Source: Massilioclostridium coli
GTDB lineage: Bacteria > Bacillota > Clostridia > Oscillospirales > Ruminococcaceae
Length of the DNA: 64,000 nucleotides
NCBI RefSeq assembly: GCF_900095865.1
Contig: NZ_FMIZ01000006.1
Span: 248,001-312,000, forward strand
Direction of reading: 5' to 3'
In this document: positions 26,576 to 32,515 of the stretch, piece by piece
Layout of the letters: the number at the start of each line of letters is the position of its first letter
Numbering within the stretch: the stretch's first letter is position 1
Position numbers and translations under genes: made by a program
Notes under the pieces: generated by a model
What the model was told of the DNA's origin: nothing
The model's database searches: none
The model's input: only the letters and a program-made list of their open reading frames with translations

Positions 26576-26766
26576 ATATGAAATTTTTTAAACTTTTATT
26601 ATTATACCATAACCATTTTAAAAAGGCAATCCTATTTTTTAAGTTTTTCATAAAATATGGGTTGAAAATAATATCAACTCTTTTATATTATATTTTTCAT
26701 AAAAAAATCAGTTTTTTTTCAAATAACTATCACATTTCCATCACAAATAAAAACTATACTTAAGTT

Positions 26767-26846
26767 ACTCCTTAAAATTCTTTTTCATAATTTTTCTTTT
26801 ATTTCTTCTTTTTTCCGCCCTGTTTGTTACAACAGGGCGGTTTTTC
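26767..26846 (+). ncRNA. Candidate small RNA, copy A of a three-copy family
   Basis: A promoter-like block (CAC-N6-ATCACA-N9-TATACT) is followed seven bases later by ACTCCTTAAAA. A pyrimidine-rich tract ends in CTTCTTTTTT, and a perfect hairpin CCGCCCTG / CAGGGCGG at 26815-26840 with T5 closes the unit. The orientation cannot serve the reverse-strand gene ending at 26858, because the T-run is on the forward strand. Copies B (28372) and C (reverse, 32155) share promoter spacing, 5' motif and tail. Confidence 0.55.
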
Positions 26847-26857
26847 CTTTTCTATCT

Positions 26858-28126
26858 CTATAAAATTTTATTTTGTTGCGGCAAGTTGGGCTCTATTGGT
26901 CTAAAAATAAAATCAACATACAAATAAAGTAGATAAACAAATAAAATTAAATTGAAAATCGATCCTACTCTTTGCACGAATTCAAAATACGTAGAGAACC
27001 CACCTTGAAAATTCGCTTTTAACAAAAACGCTGCCTGATTGATAAAGGTTATCGCTGTAACGCCTAAATATCCATAAAACATCTTCCAGTTCTGGCAAAA
27101 AACAAAACAAAGCAAACTTAAAATCACCACTGGGATTTGATATCGTTCATGCATTTTTGTGCTGAATAAAAAAATAGCATTCATAAACATCGTTGCGTGC
27201 AACACCGCTGGAATATGTCTTTTTTGCCAACGCAAATATAAATAAATAAAAACAATCCCTATTAGCAGCAATACACTTACAAGAGTTCCCCAATCCTGAT
27301 AAGTAAAACTTCCAAAGAAAGGAGAACTATCTGGTTTCCAGTTGTTTGAACCAATTCCATATAAATTAAAGGCATTTAAATTAATATAATTATATTCATC
27401 AAATCCCCCTAAATAAATATTTAGAGGAAGCAAAAGATTATGAGAGCCAATGATAAATGGAAGCCAGCCTAATGCACCTACTCCTACCCCTATTCCAATT
27501 GCAGAAAAAGCAACCTTTGGTTTGTAATAAAGAAATAACTCCAACAATAAAATGGGAGCCAAATAGGCCATTTGTAGCTTTGTCAAACAGCCTAATGCGA
27601 AAAAGATACAAGCCAAGGTTGGGCGTTTCCTTTGGAATGCAAAAAACATAGCCGCAATCCAAAACAGCAACATACTATCCGTTTGGCCCCAAAAGGAACA
27701 GTTGAAAATAGTGGAAATATTTAACGCCCACATTGTCGATAGAAATATCCCACATAATTGGTTATATTTTTTACCGATAGCATACAATAATACTACTAAC
27801 CCAATATCAAACAAAATAGGGATCAACTTAATCCAAAACATCTGTAAAAAACCACTTTGTATTTCTACCGCATGATGGATAGGCCCACTGATAAAAAATA
27901 AAAGGGTTGGAAATAGGGGCGGGTAATTTAAACTTTCCACATGAGAATAGGCATTAAACAAGCCCTGCCTCACTCCCTCTGCCCAGGGTATATTGTAGCT
28001 TACCGTATCAAATCCATTATAATAACACCCGCCAATTAATAGCCTTAACACAAGCGCAAATACAACAATACATCCAAGCCATACTTTTTCATTGATGTGT
28101 ATTTGAAAATTATATTTTTGTTCCAT
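26858..28126 (-). CDS. GT-C-like polytopic membrane glycosyltransferase
   Basis: The 422-residue membrane protein has about ten hydrophobic segments. It resembles GT-C family (DUF2029/GT87 or mannosyltransferase-like) enzymes that use lipid-linked sugars on the outer face. Points of likeness are the early acidic loop GFDTVSYNIPWAEG, then NYPPLFPTLLFF, FWGQTDSMLLF, CLTKLQMAYLAP and STKMHERYQIPV near the C-terminus. The acceptor is unknown. No sugar-nucleotide or lipid-carrier genes adjoin it. Candidate small RNAs A and B lie on the opposite strand on either side. I see no terminator of its own. Confidence 0.7.
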   Translation of the reverse strand: MEQKYNFQIHINEKVWLGCIVVFALVLRLLIGGCYYNGFDTVSYNIPWAEGVRQGLFNAYSHVESLNYPPLFPTLLFFISGPIHHAVEIQSGFLQMFWIKLIPILFDIGLVVLLYAIGKKYNQLCGIFLSTMWALNISTIFNCSFWGQTDSMLLFWIAAMFFAFQRKRPTLACIFFALGCLTKLQMAYLAPILLLELFLYYKPKVAFSAIGIGVGVGALGWLPFIIGSHNLLLPLNIYLGGFDEYNYINLNAFNLYGIGSNNWKPDSSPFFGSFTYQDWGTLVSVLLLIGIVFIYLYLRWQKRHIPAVLHATMFMNAIFLFSTKMHERYQIPVVILSLLCFVFCQNWKMFYGYLGVTAITFINQAAFLLKANFQGGFSTYFEFVQRVGSIFNLILFVYLLYLYVDFIFRPIEPNLPQQNKIL

Positions 28127-28371
28127 TTTTATCTCCTATTTAAGATAATTTATGAACTAGTTTTGTCTTAAAAACAAGTAAAATCAACTACCAAACTTAA
28201 TTTCTATCCATATTATACTGTATTATGTTATAATTGACAAGTAAAGTTTTTTAAAACAAAATTTTATCAGTAAAATTGCCAGTTTTTTCGTCATAATTTT
28301 TCTACTGTTTTTTCTTCTATTCTTTAAAAAAACAACACTTTCTGATCATATTCTTTTTTTATACTATAAGT

Positions 28372-28437
28372 ACTCCTTGAAATTTCTTTTTTCTAAATTT
28401 TCTCCTTTTTTGGCCACCTTTTTGGTGGCCATTTTTC
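28372..28437 (+). ncRNA. Candidate small RNA, copy B of a three-copy family
   Basis: CAC-N6-ATCATA-N9-TATACT is followed seven bases later by ACTCCTTGAAA. A pyrimidine tract (CTCCTTTTTT) and a hairpin TGGCCACC / GGTGGCCA with T5 at 28411-28436 follow. It lies between the divergently arranged GT-C gene and the collagen-like gene, and ends about 75 bp before the latter's start. It could instead be a leader that ends before that gene. Confidence 0.55.
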
Positions 28438-28514
28438 TTTCTCTATATTTTTAGTTATTAAATTATTATCACATCTTTTTGTTATTTTTCATATGGTAAA
28501 TAGGAGGTGAAAGA

Positions 28515-29858
28515 ATGAATAATTTTCAACCAATCGCACATTATCATAGATGTTGTACGCCAAAACCTTGCGTTCCTCCATGCCCTTCCCCTTGTCCACC
28601 AGTTTGCTATGTACCTTGTCCCGGTCCAGTTGGACCTACAGGGCCTACAGGACCTACAGGACCTGCAGGAATTGGAATCACAGGACCTACCGGGGCGACT
28701 GGCGCCACTGGCCCCATGGGACTACAAGGTAATACTGGACCTATGGGACCAAGTGGACCTATCGGGTTACGAGGACCAACAGGTCCTACTGGTGCTACTG
28801 GTGCCACTGGAGCTACTGGGGCAACTGGTCCTGGTGTAGGAGAAACCGGCCCTACAGGTGCAACTGGTGCTACTGGACCGACAGGCCCACAGGGGATTCA
28901 AGGAATTCAGGGTATACAAGGTATACAAGGTGTTACCGGAACCACTGGTGTTACCGGTGCCACCGGTCCGACTGGGGCTACTGGTCCAACGGGCGCTACT
29001 GGCTCTACAGGCCCACAGGGGATTCAAGGAATCCAAGGTATCCCTGGGGAACAAGGCTCCACTGGAGCTACAGGTGCAACTGGCCCAACAGGTATTGTCG
29101 GTCCTACCGGAGCTACGGGTGCTACTGGTCCAATAGGTGTTACCGGGCCTACTGGTTCAACAGGAGTTACTGGACCTACTGGTCCAACGGGAGTTACCGG
29201 GCCTACTGGACCTACCGGGCCACGAGGTTCAGATGGGGCAGAAGGAGCCATTGGACCAACAGGTGCAACTGGTGTTACTGGTGAAACTGGGCCTACTGGA
29301 GCAGCAGCAACAATCTCTTTGGGAACCGTAACTACAGGAGAACCAGGAACTGACGTTGTTATTACAAACACAGGTACAGATGAAAATGCTGTATTTAACT
29401 TTACAATTCCACGTGGTTTTGATGGTGGCGGAACGGTTCCTCTAGATGTTTTAACTGCTTATTCTACCCCACCTCAAGTGGGAACTGAAAATACTGAACT
29501 CATATTTGACCGGAATGGAACTTTATTTGGAACCTCAATACAACATGCAGAAAATACTTCAGAATTCACTATTAATGGATCTGGTATTTATTATGTTTCT
29601 TTCCATGGAACTATTTCTCCTGTTTCAGGAGTTACTTTTCCCATTAATATTTTAGTAAATCTACAACAAGATGGCACTATTGTAAGTGGAAGCGAAGTAC
29701 AACATACGTTCCATACCTCTACTGAAAATGTCAATGTTGCTTTTTCCACGATTATCACAGCTAATCCAAATACAACATTCCGTATTGTTGGAACAGGTGG
29801 ACAATATTTTTATTCCTCCATTGGAATCAATATTTACAAAATTGCGAACCTTCCATGA
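28515..29858 (+). CDS. Collagen-like surface or spore-coat protein (BclA type)
   Basis: The 447-residue protein starts after GGAGGTGAAAG. Residues 1-36 are Cys/Pro-rich ([17 protein letters not shown]). Residues about 37-265 are Gly-X-Thr/X-Y collagen triplets ([28 protein letters not shown]). The C-terminal 150 residues form a beta-rich C1q/TNF-like domain ([14 protein letters not shown]..., ending [16 protein letters not shown]), as in BclA-type exosporium proteins. There is no signal peptide or wall anchor, as usual for spore-surface collagens, which are laid down from the mother cell. The Cys-rich N-terminus may cross-link the trimer or anchor it. The DNA is internally repetitive, so copy number is likely to vary among strains. 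Confidence 0.85.
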
Positions 29859-29882
29859 GAAATTAAGATATATCATTGCATA

Positions 29883-29919
29883 AAAAATAGGCCATTCCTA
29901 TTTGGTATGGCCTATTTTT
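29883..29919. terminator. Bidirectional terminator between collagen-like gene and glyS
   Basis: AAAAAATAGGCCAT / ATGGCCTATTTTTC hairpin between two convergent genes. Confidence 0.9.
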
Positions 29920-29933
29920 CAAATTATCATCCA

Positions 29934-31313
29934 TTAGAATTCAATTTTTTGCTCAATATAAGCAATCAATTGGTCAATCGCAATTCTTTCCTGTTGCATG
30001 GTATCACGGTCACGTACGGTAACGCATCCATCTGTTTCAGAATCAAAGTCATAGGTAATACAGAATGGGGTTCCTATTTCATCCTGACGACGGTAACGTT
30101 TTCCAATAGAACCAGTATCATCATAATCTACCATGAAATGTTTTGCTAGCTGTTCATATACAGCACCAGCTTGTTCATTTAATTTCTTCGATAATGGCAA
30201 TACACATGCTTTATAAGGGGCAAGAGCTGGATGCAAATGCATTACTACACGAGTATCATTTTCACCGATTTCTTCTTCATCATATGCTTCACATAAAAAT
30301 GCCAAAGCAACACGGTCCGCACCTAAGGAAGGTTCGATTACATATGGTATATAATGTTCGTTATCTTGTTGGTCAAAATATTCTAAGGATTTTCCACTGT
30401 GGTTTTGATGTTGGGTCAAATCAAAATCAGTACGGTCTGCAATACCCCATAATTCTCCCCATCCAAATGGGAACAAGAATTCGATATCTGTGGTTGCGTT
30501 GGAATAATGGGAAAGCTCTTCTGGATCATGATCACGCAAACGCATATTTTCTGGTTTAATTCCCAAATTTAACAGGAAATTCTTACAATAATCTTTCCAA
30601 TAACGGAACCATTCCAAATCAGTACCTGGTTTACAGAAAAATTCCAATTCCATCTGTTCAAATTCTCTGGTACGGAAGGTAAAATTTCCAGGAGTAATTT
30701 CATTACGGAATGATTTCCCAATCTGCGCCACCCCAAATGGCAATTTTTTCCGAGTTGTCCGTTGAATATTAGCAAAATTCACGAAAATACCTTGAGCGGT
30801 TTCTGGACGCAGATAAATTTCATTTTTTGCGTCCTCTGTAACACCCTGGAATGTTTTAAACATCAGGTTAAAAGCACGAATATCAGTAAAATTAGTACCC
30901 CCACAGTTTGGACACTTAATTCCATTTTGTTGGATAAACTCCATCATTTGTTCATTGCTCCAACCATTTGGAGATACATCGCTTTGTTCTTCAATTAACT
31001 GGTCCGCACGATGGCGTGTTTTACAGTCTTTACAATCCATTAAGGGATCCGAAAAACCACCAACGTGACCGGATGCTACCCAAGTTTCTGGATTCATTAA
31101 AATAGCACTGTCCAACCCAACATTGTATTTACATTCCTGAATAAATTTTTTACGCCATGCGGCTTTCACATTATTTTTGAACTCTACACCTAATGGGCCG
31201 TAATCCCATGTGTTTGCTAAGCCGCCATAAATTTCACTGCCTGCATACACAAAACCTCTACCCTTGCATAGAGCAACTATTTTTTCCATTGTTTTTTCGC
31301 TGTTTAAAAGCAT
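29934..31313 (-). CDS. glyS: Glycyl-tRNA synthetase (single-chain dimeric type)
   Basis: The class II synthetase charges tRNA-Gly. The start is ATG 31313 after AGGAGGAAGAAAG; an in-frame upstream ATG at 31340 precedes the ribosome site and is rejected. Motif 1 and motif 2 regions ([55 protein letters not shown]) and the C-terminal anticodon-binding domain ([16 protein letters not shown]..., [25 protein letters not shown]) are complete. A CxxC pair in the insertion (KCPNCGGT) is typical. The length of about 459 residues is as expected. No T-box is visible in the 300-bp leader, which holds only a CCGCCT / AGGCGG hairpin. Confidence 0.96.
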
Positions 31314-31575
31314 CTTTCTTCCTCCTAAATGGGCATGCACTGGTTGTGCAACCTGTTATTACCGCCTCTTAGGCGGCGGGATCTTTTTCTAGGTAATCTA
31401 TAGAATCAAAAGTAAAATAAAATCCTACAACAATCAATCCTGCTCGGCGTTTGAAAAATTAATCCCTGTATTATTTCATTTTTTCTTCTTTTGAACTATA
31501 TTACCACATTTTATAATCATACGAGTTTATCTGGAATATGTCAAGTAAAACCCAATACTTTTCTACTGTACTATA
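31314..31575. other. Leader region of glyS, no T-box seen
   Basis: The hairpin CCGCC TCTTA GGCGG at about 31362-31376 lies in the presumed 5' UTR of glyS (reverse strand). The T-box consensus GGTGGNACCGCG and a Gly specifier loop were looked for and not found. Otherwise the region is AT-rich and without features. Confidence 0.4.
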
Positions 31576-31604
31576 TTGACAAACTCTTTTTACGTGTGTA
31601 AAAT
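31576..31604 (+). promoter_or_regulatory. SigmaA-type promoter of tRNA-Pro
   Basis: TTGACA at 31576-31581 and TAAAAT at 31599-31604 with a 17-bp spacer, ending ten bases before the tRNA. Confidence 0.75.
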
Positions 31605-31613
31605 GGATAATAT

Positions 31614-31690
31614 CGGGATGTAGCTCAGTTTGGTAGAGCGCTGTGTTCGGGACGCAGAAGCCGCAAGTTCAAATCTTGTCATCCCGACCA
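31614..31690 (+). tRNA. tRNA-Pro (anticodon CGG)
   Basis: Acceptor CGGGATG / CATCCCG, D-arm GCTCAGTTTGGTAGAGC, anticodon stem CTGTG / CGCAG (one wobble) around TTCGGGA (anticodon CGG), and T-arm with GTTCAAATC. The 3' ACCA is encoded. Confidence 0.95.
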
Positions 31691-31730
31691 ATTAAAAGCC
31701 TCGACGCGCATAATCGTGTTCGAGGCTTTT
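31691..31730 (+). terminator. Terminator of tRNA-Pro
   Basis: AAAAGCCTCGA / TCGAGGCTTTT outer arms surround an imperfect inner stem, followed by TTTAATTTAT. Confidence 0.8.
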
Positions 31731-31937
31731 AATTTATCCTATTTTTAATGCTCATAGTTTGAGAATGTTTACATAAGGCGTTTTAAAAATTTTTCTATCT
31801 TCGTCCTATAGTAGAAAAATACATATATAATGTTTTAAAAATCTTCCTAATTATAAGGTACAGAACTATTATTATATTATTCGTTCTACGAAAATGGACA
31901 AATTAGCTGATTTAACTTATGATAAAATAAATACAAG

Positions 31938-32155
31938 GAAAAAGCCACCCCACACAATGGGGTGGCCAAAAAGAAGAAAAAGAGAAATGAAGAAAGTTTT
32001 TAAAAATAGCCGAACGGAGATGCTCCTACATCACTGTTAAAAATTAACACGCTGTTAGTCCGCCAACTATTTTTGATAAGCGCAAACAGCTATTTCAAAC
32101 TGAATGGGCATGTTCAATTGAAATCTGCTGTTGCAACAATACTTTTTTAAGGAGC
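31938..32155 (-). ncRNA. Candidate structured RNA, copy C of a three-copy family
   Basis: On the reverse strand CAC-N6-ATCACA-N9-TATACT is followed seven bases later by GCTCCTTAAAA, exactly as in copies A and B. Copy C then has an extra internal section of about 140 nt with a long hairpin (GCAACAGC...ATTTCAA pairing with TTTGAAAT.GCTGTTTGC, 32082-32134). The 5' TGCTCCT can pair with AGGAGCA at 32021-32027. The tail is again pyrimidine-rich (CTCTTTTTCTTCTTTTT), and the terminator is GCCACCCC / GGGGTGGC at 31944-31966 with T5. The rest of 31731-32515 shows no gene. Confidence 0.55.
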
Positions 32156-32515
32156 AATTATAGTATACCCAGGTTTTGTGATAAAAACGTGATAACTTTA
32201 TAAAAAAATATAAAATAGTATTTTTCAAAACATCTTTCTAAAAATAATGGAGGATCTTTTTGTAATTTGGACACAAACGGCGGTTTCTATTAGATTATTA
32301 CATCGCCTTATTTTTTGTTGATTTTCTTTGATTGGCATTGTTTGTGTAACAAAAGGAACTTTTGTGTTTTTGCTATGGAAAAAATTTTTATTATGATTTT
32401 TAATCCAAAATAATCTAAAATATAGTTATATTTATCTTATAGTATTGGTTGAAAATAGTCTTTTCCTATGTTAAGCTAATAATAGTCTAATAAATTTGTA
32501 CAAGGGGTGGATATC

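Follow-up and report, generated by a model that had tools for sequence, protein, structure and literature searches.

What a set of short untranslated units is for, and what switches them on, is the question raised by a window of 64,000 nucleotides (nt) of Massilioclostridium coli DNA, the whole stretch analysed here. Three of its loci, called A, B and C below (Table 1), share a promoter-like element at fixed spacing and a strong terminal hairpin, and the original prediction took them for a small-RNA family acting on translation starts. A–C are probably small RNA genes under one stress-sensing regulator, blocking the translation starts of other messenger RNAs. Together with D, a fourth unit of the same genome (2.99 Mb, 7 contigs; G000), we consider them likely to be stress-controlled, regulator-activated, untranslated RNAs which cover start sites by pairing.

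The layout CAC-N6-ATCAYA-N9-TATACT-N7-CTCCTT is present, as predicted, with 0 mismatches at 26731-26773 (+), 28336-28378 (+) and 32149-32191 (-). When ≤3 mismatches are allowed, the window still holds 3 matches, and 100 shuffles average 0.02. Across the whole genome, the core of the motif (ATCAYA onward) was found at ≤2 mismatches only in these three places (backwards control, 1). ATCAC is doubled at 11 bp without deviation in A and C, whereas B has a degenerate version (AACAC...ATCAT). A hairpin with a T-run follows each copy, and the three stems (10, 8 and 11 pairs) are the longest of the nine terminator-like sites found between 26580 and 32500 (shuffles, 4.1). A scripted scan for open reading frames (ATG/GTG/TTG starts) gave none of at least 9 codons in A, B or D, and C holds only frames of 13-16 codons. 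The small-RNA layout is real and functional-looking. The transcription start would be the purine 7 nt after the -10 element, and the 5' CUCCUU that follows is common to A–C only. In the predicted folds, A and B have little beyond the terminator. Rfam gave no family at gathering score for A–C, only transfer RNAs reaching that score in the window, and only chance-level matches at the RNAs of D and of the sister-species loci g1-g4 (Table 1). A sigma-70 -35 element was rejected (ACATTT, ACTTTC and ACGTTT at the -35 place are by eye unlike TTGACA), and nothing supports a phage origin (no exact viral_contigs match) or a plasmid origin (no plasmid match for copy A, the only copy queried). A scan for promoters listed a single weak candidate at C, its -10 being shifted.

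The recurring promoter element is better read as a putative OmpR/PhoB-type operator, ATCACA-N5-ATCACA-N9-TAnnnT, which would replace the -35 element. At ≤1 mismatch it occurs five times in the genome and not at all in the backwards control. The operator with N9 spacing stands at A, C and D, at a two-component operon, at htrA and at C6:194632. The idea of a family stands as far as candidate small RNA genes under one common control are concerned; the shared element itself turns out to be a response-regulator type of operator that is found before protein genes as well. The regulator, P0001, has receiver (PF00072) and Trans_reg_C (PF00486) domains above cut-off, which places it in the OmpR/PhoB family of response regulators. 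Its best matches among the 25 NCBIfam families listed, MtrA (201 bits against 300), RpaB, YycF and PhoB, are all below their cut-offs, and it receives no equivalog name.

A lack of recurrence in relatives had been named among the outcomes that would refute the prediction; this outcome was obtained for the full motif and not for the operator. The full string with CTCCTT gave 0 matches at ≤1 mismatch among 60 relatives (backwards control, 2), and an exact copy was found neither in genome_contigs, where RAA was added to the string, nor in viral_contigs, both of which may omit records very near the own genome. The operator, in contrast, gave 49 matches at ≤1 mismatch in 100 genomes against 6 backwards, 28 of the 100 having at least one; 43 of these sites were read in that pass, five own-genome sites were read separately and one overlapping site of G033 was omitted. 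Searched with a comparable pattern at ≤2 mismatches, the sister species G001 has 21 places against 2 in the control. It is the operator that recurs elsewhere, and not the 5' CTCCTT. A widened operator, WTCACA-N5-WNCAYA-N9-TANNNT, was looked for at ≤1 mismatch in the promoter of the regulator gene itself. Of the 80 best-ranked named homologue loci, which are 47-59% identical and by title mostly from Lachnospiraceae, 37 have it, as do 9 of the 20 loci from relatives and the own genome; shuffled loci gave 0.0 per set (20 shuffles each). The 78%-identical regulator orthologue of G001 belongs to this set. The widened operator at these promoters ties the putative operator to this regulator family. 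An htrA gene of G001 (72% identical over residues 220-464) also has the operator. In other genera, nine downstream proteins were scanned (picked by eye, a tenth, cut by a contig end, being left out): five are ABC ATPases, and Hsp20 and HlyD-type proteins account for two each. As the operator precedes genes of these kinds elsewhere, a wide envelope-stress regulon is suggested.

The sister species also offers the clearest view of what the RNAs may do. Reading 18 of the 21 operator sites of G001, one site not being located and the others not being judged systematically, gave three terminator-ended units, g1-g3, and a possible fourth, g4, which may be a counterpart of C. The stretches TTTCTTTTTCATAATCTCCTTT, TTCCTTTTCATTTTAATCTCCTTT and CATCTTTTTCATTTTCTTCTCCTTTT of g1-g3 are each the reverse complement of a Shine-Dalgarno (SD) sequence, a spacer of 3-6 nt, AUG and A/G-rich codons (AAA AAG or AAA AGG). 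TTTCAT-N3..9-CTCCTT is found in all three, and the looser TTCAT form appears in shuffles at 0.0022, 0.0070 and 0.0250. The CTCCTT of g1-g3 is internal and 3' of the anti-AUG, not at the 5' end. In A and C, the CAT follows TTTTT or TTCTT, and D carries TAT instead, which could pair with AUG through a G-U pair. Of 396 family genomes, 18 have CAT-N3..9-CTCC within 28-58 nt of the operator; the control gave 1 match. By the author's reading, four of the 18 (G001, G403, G414 and G073) have free-standing operator-RNA-terminator units. In genus g15, five of the seven genomes listed have the unit after the operator and ahead of the regulator gene. This g15 leader unit (L334-L338) is ~130-150 nt long and terminator-ended and has 5' hairpins; its TTTCCTCTC, located between hairpins, is invariant. 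It is possible that an RNA is made there from the regulator's own leader. Covariation in these leader RNAs is weak (two-sided changes in 5 of 24 pairs; covariation term 0.08).

Predicted pairing points in the same direction. Duplexes with model start sites are better than those of shuffles for g1, g2 and g3 (z -7.8, -5.5 and -5.2). Against real start sites sampled from our own gene calls (190 from G000, 170 from G001), a mean energy as low was reached, out of 30 shuffles each, by 1 for B and by 0 for A, C, D and g1-g3. When only the best 5% of energies are taken, g1 and g3 show a clear gain and A, C and g2 a small one. The top targets of A include two adjacent genes, lipoprotein-like by eye, L303:1342-1929 (-) and 1948-2502 (ranks 2 and 5 of 190), and 15 nt of A are, by eye, perfectly complementary to the start of the former, ATGAAAAAGAATTTT, the match beginning at the start codon. 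An enrichment of signal-peptide targets was also considered and is not established. The top 15 targets hold 8, 5, 7 and 8 of them for A–D and 3, 3 and 7 for g1-g3, counts reached by 5, 37, 30, 14, 41, 37 and 6 of 60 shuffles, respectively. In mean energy, signal-like genes differ from the rest by an amount that 5, 6, 33, 39, 5, 2 and 4 of 60 shuffles attained in the same order, at most a weak hint of such a preference, and for A, B and g1-g3 only.

These observations can be joined into one scheme. An OmpR/PhoB-family regulator would bind ATCACA-N5-ATCACA, 9 bp upstream of the -10 element, and activate transcription. Operator sites make it very probable that this regulator also governs its own operon and HtrA, and for this reason the RNAs would be part of an envelope-stress regulon; HtrA, Hsp20 and the exporters suggest envelope or secretion stress as the signal. 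The unpaired, pyrimidine-rich stretch before the terminator would be antisense to translation start sites, combining anti-SD, anti-AUG and anti-AAA/AAG codons in the sister RNAs, with weaker forms in the own genome, and A–C would carry the 5' CUCCUU as an additional anti-SD. Base pairing would then cover start sites, lowering translation for as long as the regulator is active. The 5' CUCCUU appears to be a local feature, and what relatives share are the operator and the anti-start stretch.

Several results weigh against this scheme. The motif was noticed before it was tested and the operator was widened after an earlier result, which makes the controls too favourable, and therefore the regulator-promoter figures are somewhat flattering. 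At ≤1 mismatch, 43 of the 80 named regulator loci and 11 of the 20 others have no operator. With the pattern used for G001 at ≤2 mismatches, enrichment is weaker in G011 (12 against 6), G033 (12 against 5) and G006 (23 against 12). In the own genome, ATCAC-N6-ATCACA-N9-TATACT at ≤3 mismatches gives 13 places against 8 in the backwards control, so that this search is noisy by itself; the flanks of the 13 were read, and the places other than the RNA units, the two-component operon, htrA and C6:194632 are situated within or next to coding sequence, with no clear meaning. The operator pattern at ≤3 mismatches is noisy too, giving 135 places, about 100 of them listed and few read, against 76 in the control. 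B and D lack CAT, neither A nor C has CTCC after it, and the search for operator plus CAT-N3..9-CTCC found nothing in the own genome; a stricter pattern gave 1 of 391 in a class-wide sample. Among the 18 genomes with a match, only four have free-standing units and five have regulator leaders; the other nine, leaders or unclear, include one regulator leader and one probable Hsp20 leader (by first residues). A–D match model start sites only modestly (z -1.8, -1.8, -2.3 and -2.8; 8, 10, 4 and 3 of 200 shuffles as good), and in the best 5% of energies the gain is about nil for B (-19.3 against -19.1 in shuffles) and negative for D (-15.5 against -16.0).

Four other explanations have to be weighed. 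The 5' CUCCUU end could be the main effector, masking AAGGAG ribosome sites: it is identical in A, B and C at an identical distance from the -10, it is unpaired in their predicted folds, and B has a second, internal CTCCTT. However, 6 nt alone would give little specificity, and the sequence is missing from the 5' end of D and of g1-g3, the latter having their anti-SD internally, beside the anti-AUG; we regard this account as possible and rather doubtful. Of the predicted action on translation starts, the pairing is favoured by the sister-species comparison, and its placing in the 5' CTCCTT is not. The suggestion that the RNAs act by another route, as regulator-controlled RNAs that bind protein through the folded domain of C or sponge other RNAs, draws on the ~140 nt of extra structured sequence in C, with its additional large hairpins (fold z -3.59; none of 200 shuffles equally stable), and on the long g4, in which no anti-start site was seen. 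It agrees poorly with A and B, which are little more than a pyrimidine stretch and a terminator, and with mean pairing energies that are better than those of shuffles, and it seems unlikely.

The units might also be terminated leaders (attenuators) of downstream genes rather than free RNAs. B ends ~80 nt before the same-strand collagen-like gene at 28515, in the five g15 genomes the regulator gene comes immediately after the unit, and in G001 the regulator start is 185 nt from the -10. A, on the other hand, faces the end of an opposite-strand gene, with the next plausible same-strand gene ~1.6 kb off, C is ~600 nt from the next same-strand gene, and a T-run follows the stems of both; leaders are an improbable account of the set. 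Recent duplication of a local or mobile sequence lacking any RNA function is the least credible of all and to be expected only in an exceptional case. Three copies do lie within 5.5 kb with none elsewhere in the genome at ≤2 mismatches, but their spacers and RNA bodies differ in spite of the agreement in operator, -10 and terminator layout, and the operator recurs with D, htrA and the regulator, and in other species.

The positions of all features are collected in Table 1. The collagen-like gene (28515-29858, Pfam Collagen) is preceded in 28455-28515 by CATATGGTA with AC 17 nt upstream, an arrangement that we take to resemble a sporulation sigma-K promoter; because of this sigma-K-like promoter, the gene may encode a protein of the spore surface and have no dependence on RNA B. 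A T-box leader (Rfam RF00230, 114 bits) lies near D at L078:3470-3732 (+). When C was compared with 120 relatives by BLASTN, every match beyond the own genome was short and weak, the best having E 3.1e-4. Around the glycyl-tRNA synthetase gene (eight stretches, seven relatives), that gene alone was common, plus two weak, unrelated matches, and the neighbourhoods of A–D had no protein in common with the 2-5 kb around g1-g4.

Table 1. Positions of the candidate RNAs, operators and associated promoters (unprefixed positions refer to the window).
Feature	Location	Strand	Basis or remarks
Operator of A, ATCACA-TTTCC-ATCACA	26729..26745	+	0 mismatches
-10 element of A, TATACT	26755..26760	+	motif match
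Candidate small RNA A, ~79 nt	26767..26845	+	putative start at 26767 from -10 spacing; predicted unpaired up to terminator
5' CTCCTT (anti-SD) of A	26768..26773	+	motif match
Anti-start stretch TTCTTTTTCATAAT of A	26778..26791	+	same 14 nt in sister RNA g1 (by eye)
Terminator hairpin of A, 10 pairs, then T5	26815..26840	+	fold, terminator scan
Degenerate operator of B, AACACTTTCTGATCATA	28334..28350	+	2 mismatches to one pattern, 3 to another
-10 element of B	28360..28365	+	motif match
Candidate small RNA B, ~65 nt	28372..28436	+	CTCCTT at 28373 and 28402; no CAT in tested stretch
Terminator hairpin of B, 8 pairs, then T5	28411..28431	+	fold, terminator scan
Operator of C, ATCACG-TTTTT-ATCACA	32177..32193	-	pattern search
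-10 element of C	32162..32167	-	motif match
Candidate small RNA C, ~217 nt	31939..32155	-	CTCCTT at its 5' end, a large folded domain, an anti-start stretch and a terminator
Anti-start stretch CTTTCTTCATTTCTCTTTTTC of C	31976..31996	-	sequence reading, pairing test
Terminator hairpin of C, 11 pairs	31943..31967	-	fold, terminator scan
Candidate RNA D, fourth terminator-ended unit	C1:257980	-	operator; like pyrimidine tract; terminator very similar to that of A
Response regulator/histidine kinase operon promoter	C1:1062927	-	operator; response regulator (gene at C1:1062240-1062908) with PF00072, PF00486; histidine kinase also assigned by Pfam
htrA promoter	C2:619680	-	operator with 2 mismatches; HtrA-type protease (Trypsin_2 + PDZ)
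Triple half-site, 11-bp period	C6:194632-194674	-	membrane-protein-like gene ~300 nt on (by eye); no terminator-ended RNA noticed
g1	G001 C11:176056		operator-preceded, terminator-ended; anti-start stretch TTTCTTTTTCATAATCTCCTTT
g2	G001 C12:239744		operator-preceded, terminator-ended; anti-start stretch TTCCTTTTCATTTTAATCTCCTTT
g3	G001 C11:1335659		operator-preceded, terminator-ended; anti-start stretch CATCTTTTTCATTTTCTTCTCCTTTT
g4 (possible unit)	G001 C11:349630 (L285)		long, operator-preceded, strong predicted structure; no visible anti-start site
Operator before ABC ATPase/Hsp20/HlyD-type genes	L088, L118, L103, L127, L297, L123, L107, L116, L092		scan of nine proteins picked by eye

Several known systems invite comparison, and a literature search confined to titles and the openings of abstracts, outside subscription papers and preprints, found no such RNAs described in bacteria of this kind. 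A model for LhrC is included in Rfam. LhrC1-5 of Listeria are multicopy, CU-rich RNAs under envelope-stress two-component control (LisRK), with the SD region among their predicted pairing sites, a CUCCC-type motif repeated in loops and single strand, and a LisR-responsive element upstream of -53 (PMC4132741). By this description, A–D and their sister RNAs resemble LhrC in copy number, CU-rich composition, proposed type of control and predicted pairing with the SD; LhrC differs, by description again, in its CUCCC-type repeats and in the position of its LisR-responsive element. CpxRA and CssRS are two-component systems that control HtrA. The regulator studied here is like such HtrA-controlling systems, CiaRH included, in belonging to the OmpR family and in having its putative operator before an htrA gene, and unlike them in reaching no equivalog cut-off among the 25 NCBIfam families listed.

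The closest parallel is with the csRNAs of Streptococcus, controlled by CiaRH. These occur several per genome, their promoters have an 11-bp direct repeat ~10 bp before the -10, they carry anti-SD and anti-AUG in an unpaired stretch followed by a terminator hairpin, and their regulator is linked to htrA and to its own operon (PMC3091779, PMC8317062, PMC8186281). The candidates agree in having several RNAs per genome, an 11-bp-repeat promoter, an anti-start stretch and a terminator; the link between regulator, htrA and own operon is seen in operator sites only. The anti-SD/anti-AUG arrangement itself is found in g1-g3, whereas A and C have CAT without a 3' CTCC, and B and D lack CAT. Unlike the csRNAs (RF02379), whose CiaR site is NTTAAG-N5-TTTAAG, A–C have ATCACA-N5-ATCACA or a degenerate form of it. 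B scores 26.2 bits against the gathering score of 57 (E 3.1), A and C are unlisted, and the loci of D and g1-g4 have no csRNA match at E ≤5. Furthermore, the sister RNAs add an anti-lysine-codon stretch (TTTTCAT), C has a large extra domain, and the host, judged from its relatives, is not a streptococcus. Because the csRNA operator was absent and the Rfam score was not reached, we file the RNAs as csRNA-like, presumed to work like csRNAs, and not as members. A tentative idea, to which we give a rather low probability, is that they are an independently evolved, csRNA-like solution, in which RNAs antisense to the consensus start SD-spacer-AUG-AAA-AAR are made under envelope stress and lower a whole protein class; if this were true, the class would be exported proteins beginning Met-Lys-Lys, rather than single chosen targets. 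The candidate stress regulon is in any case given concretely, with its operator, regulator, protease and RNAs, and more than one origin is suggested for anti-start-site RNAs under HtrA-linked two-component systems.

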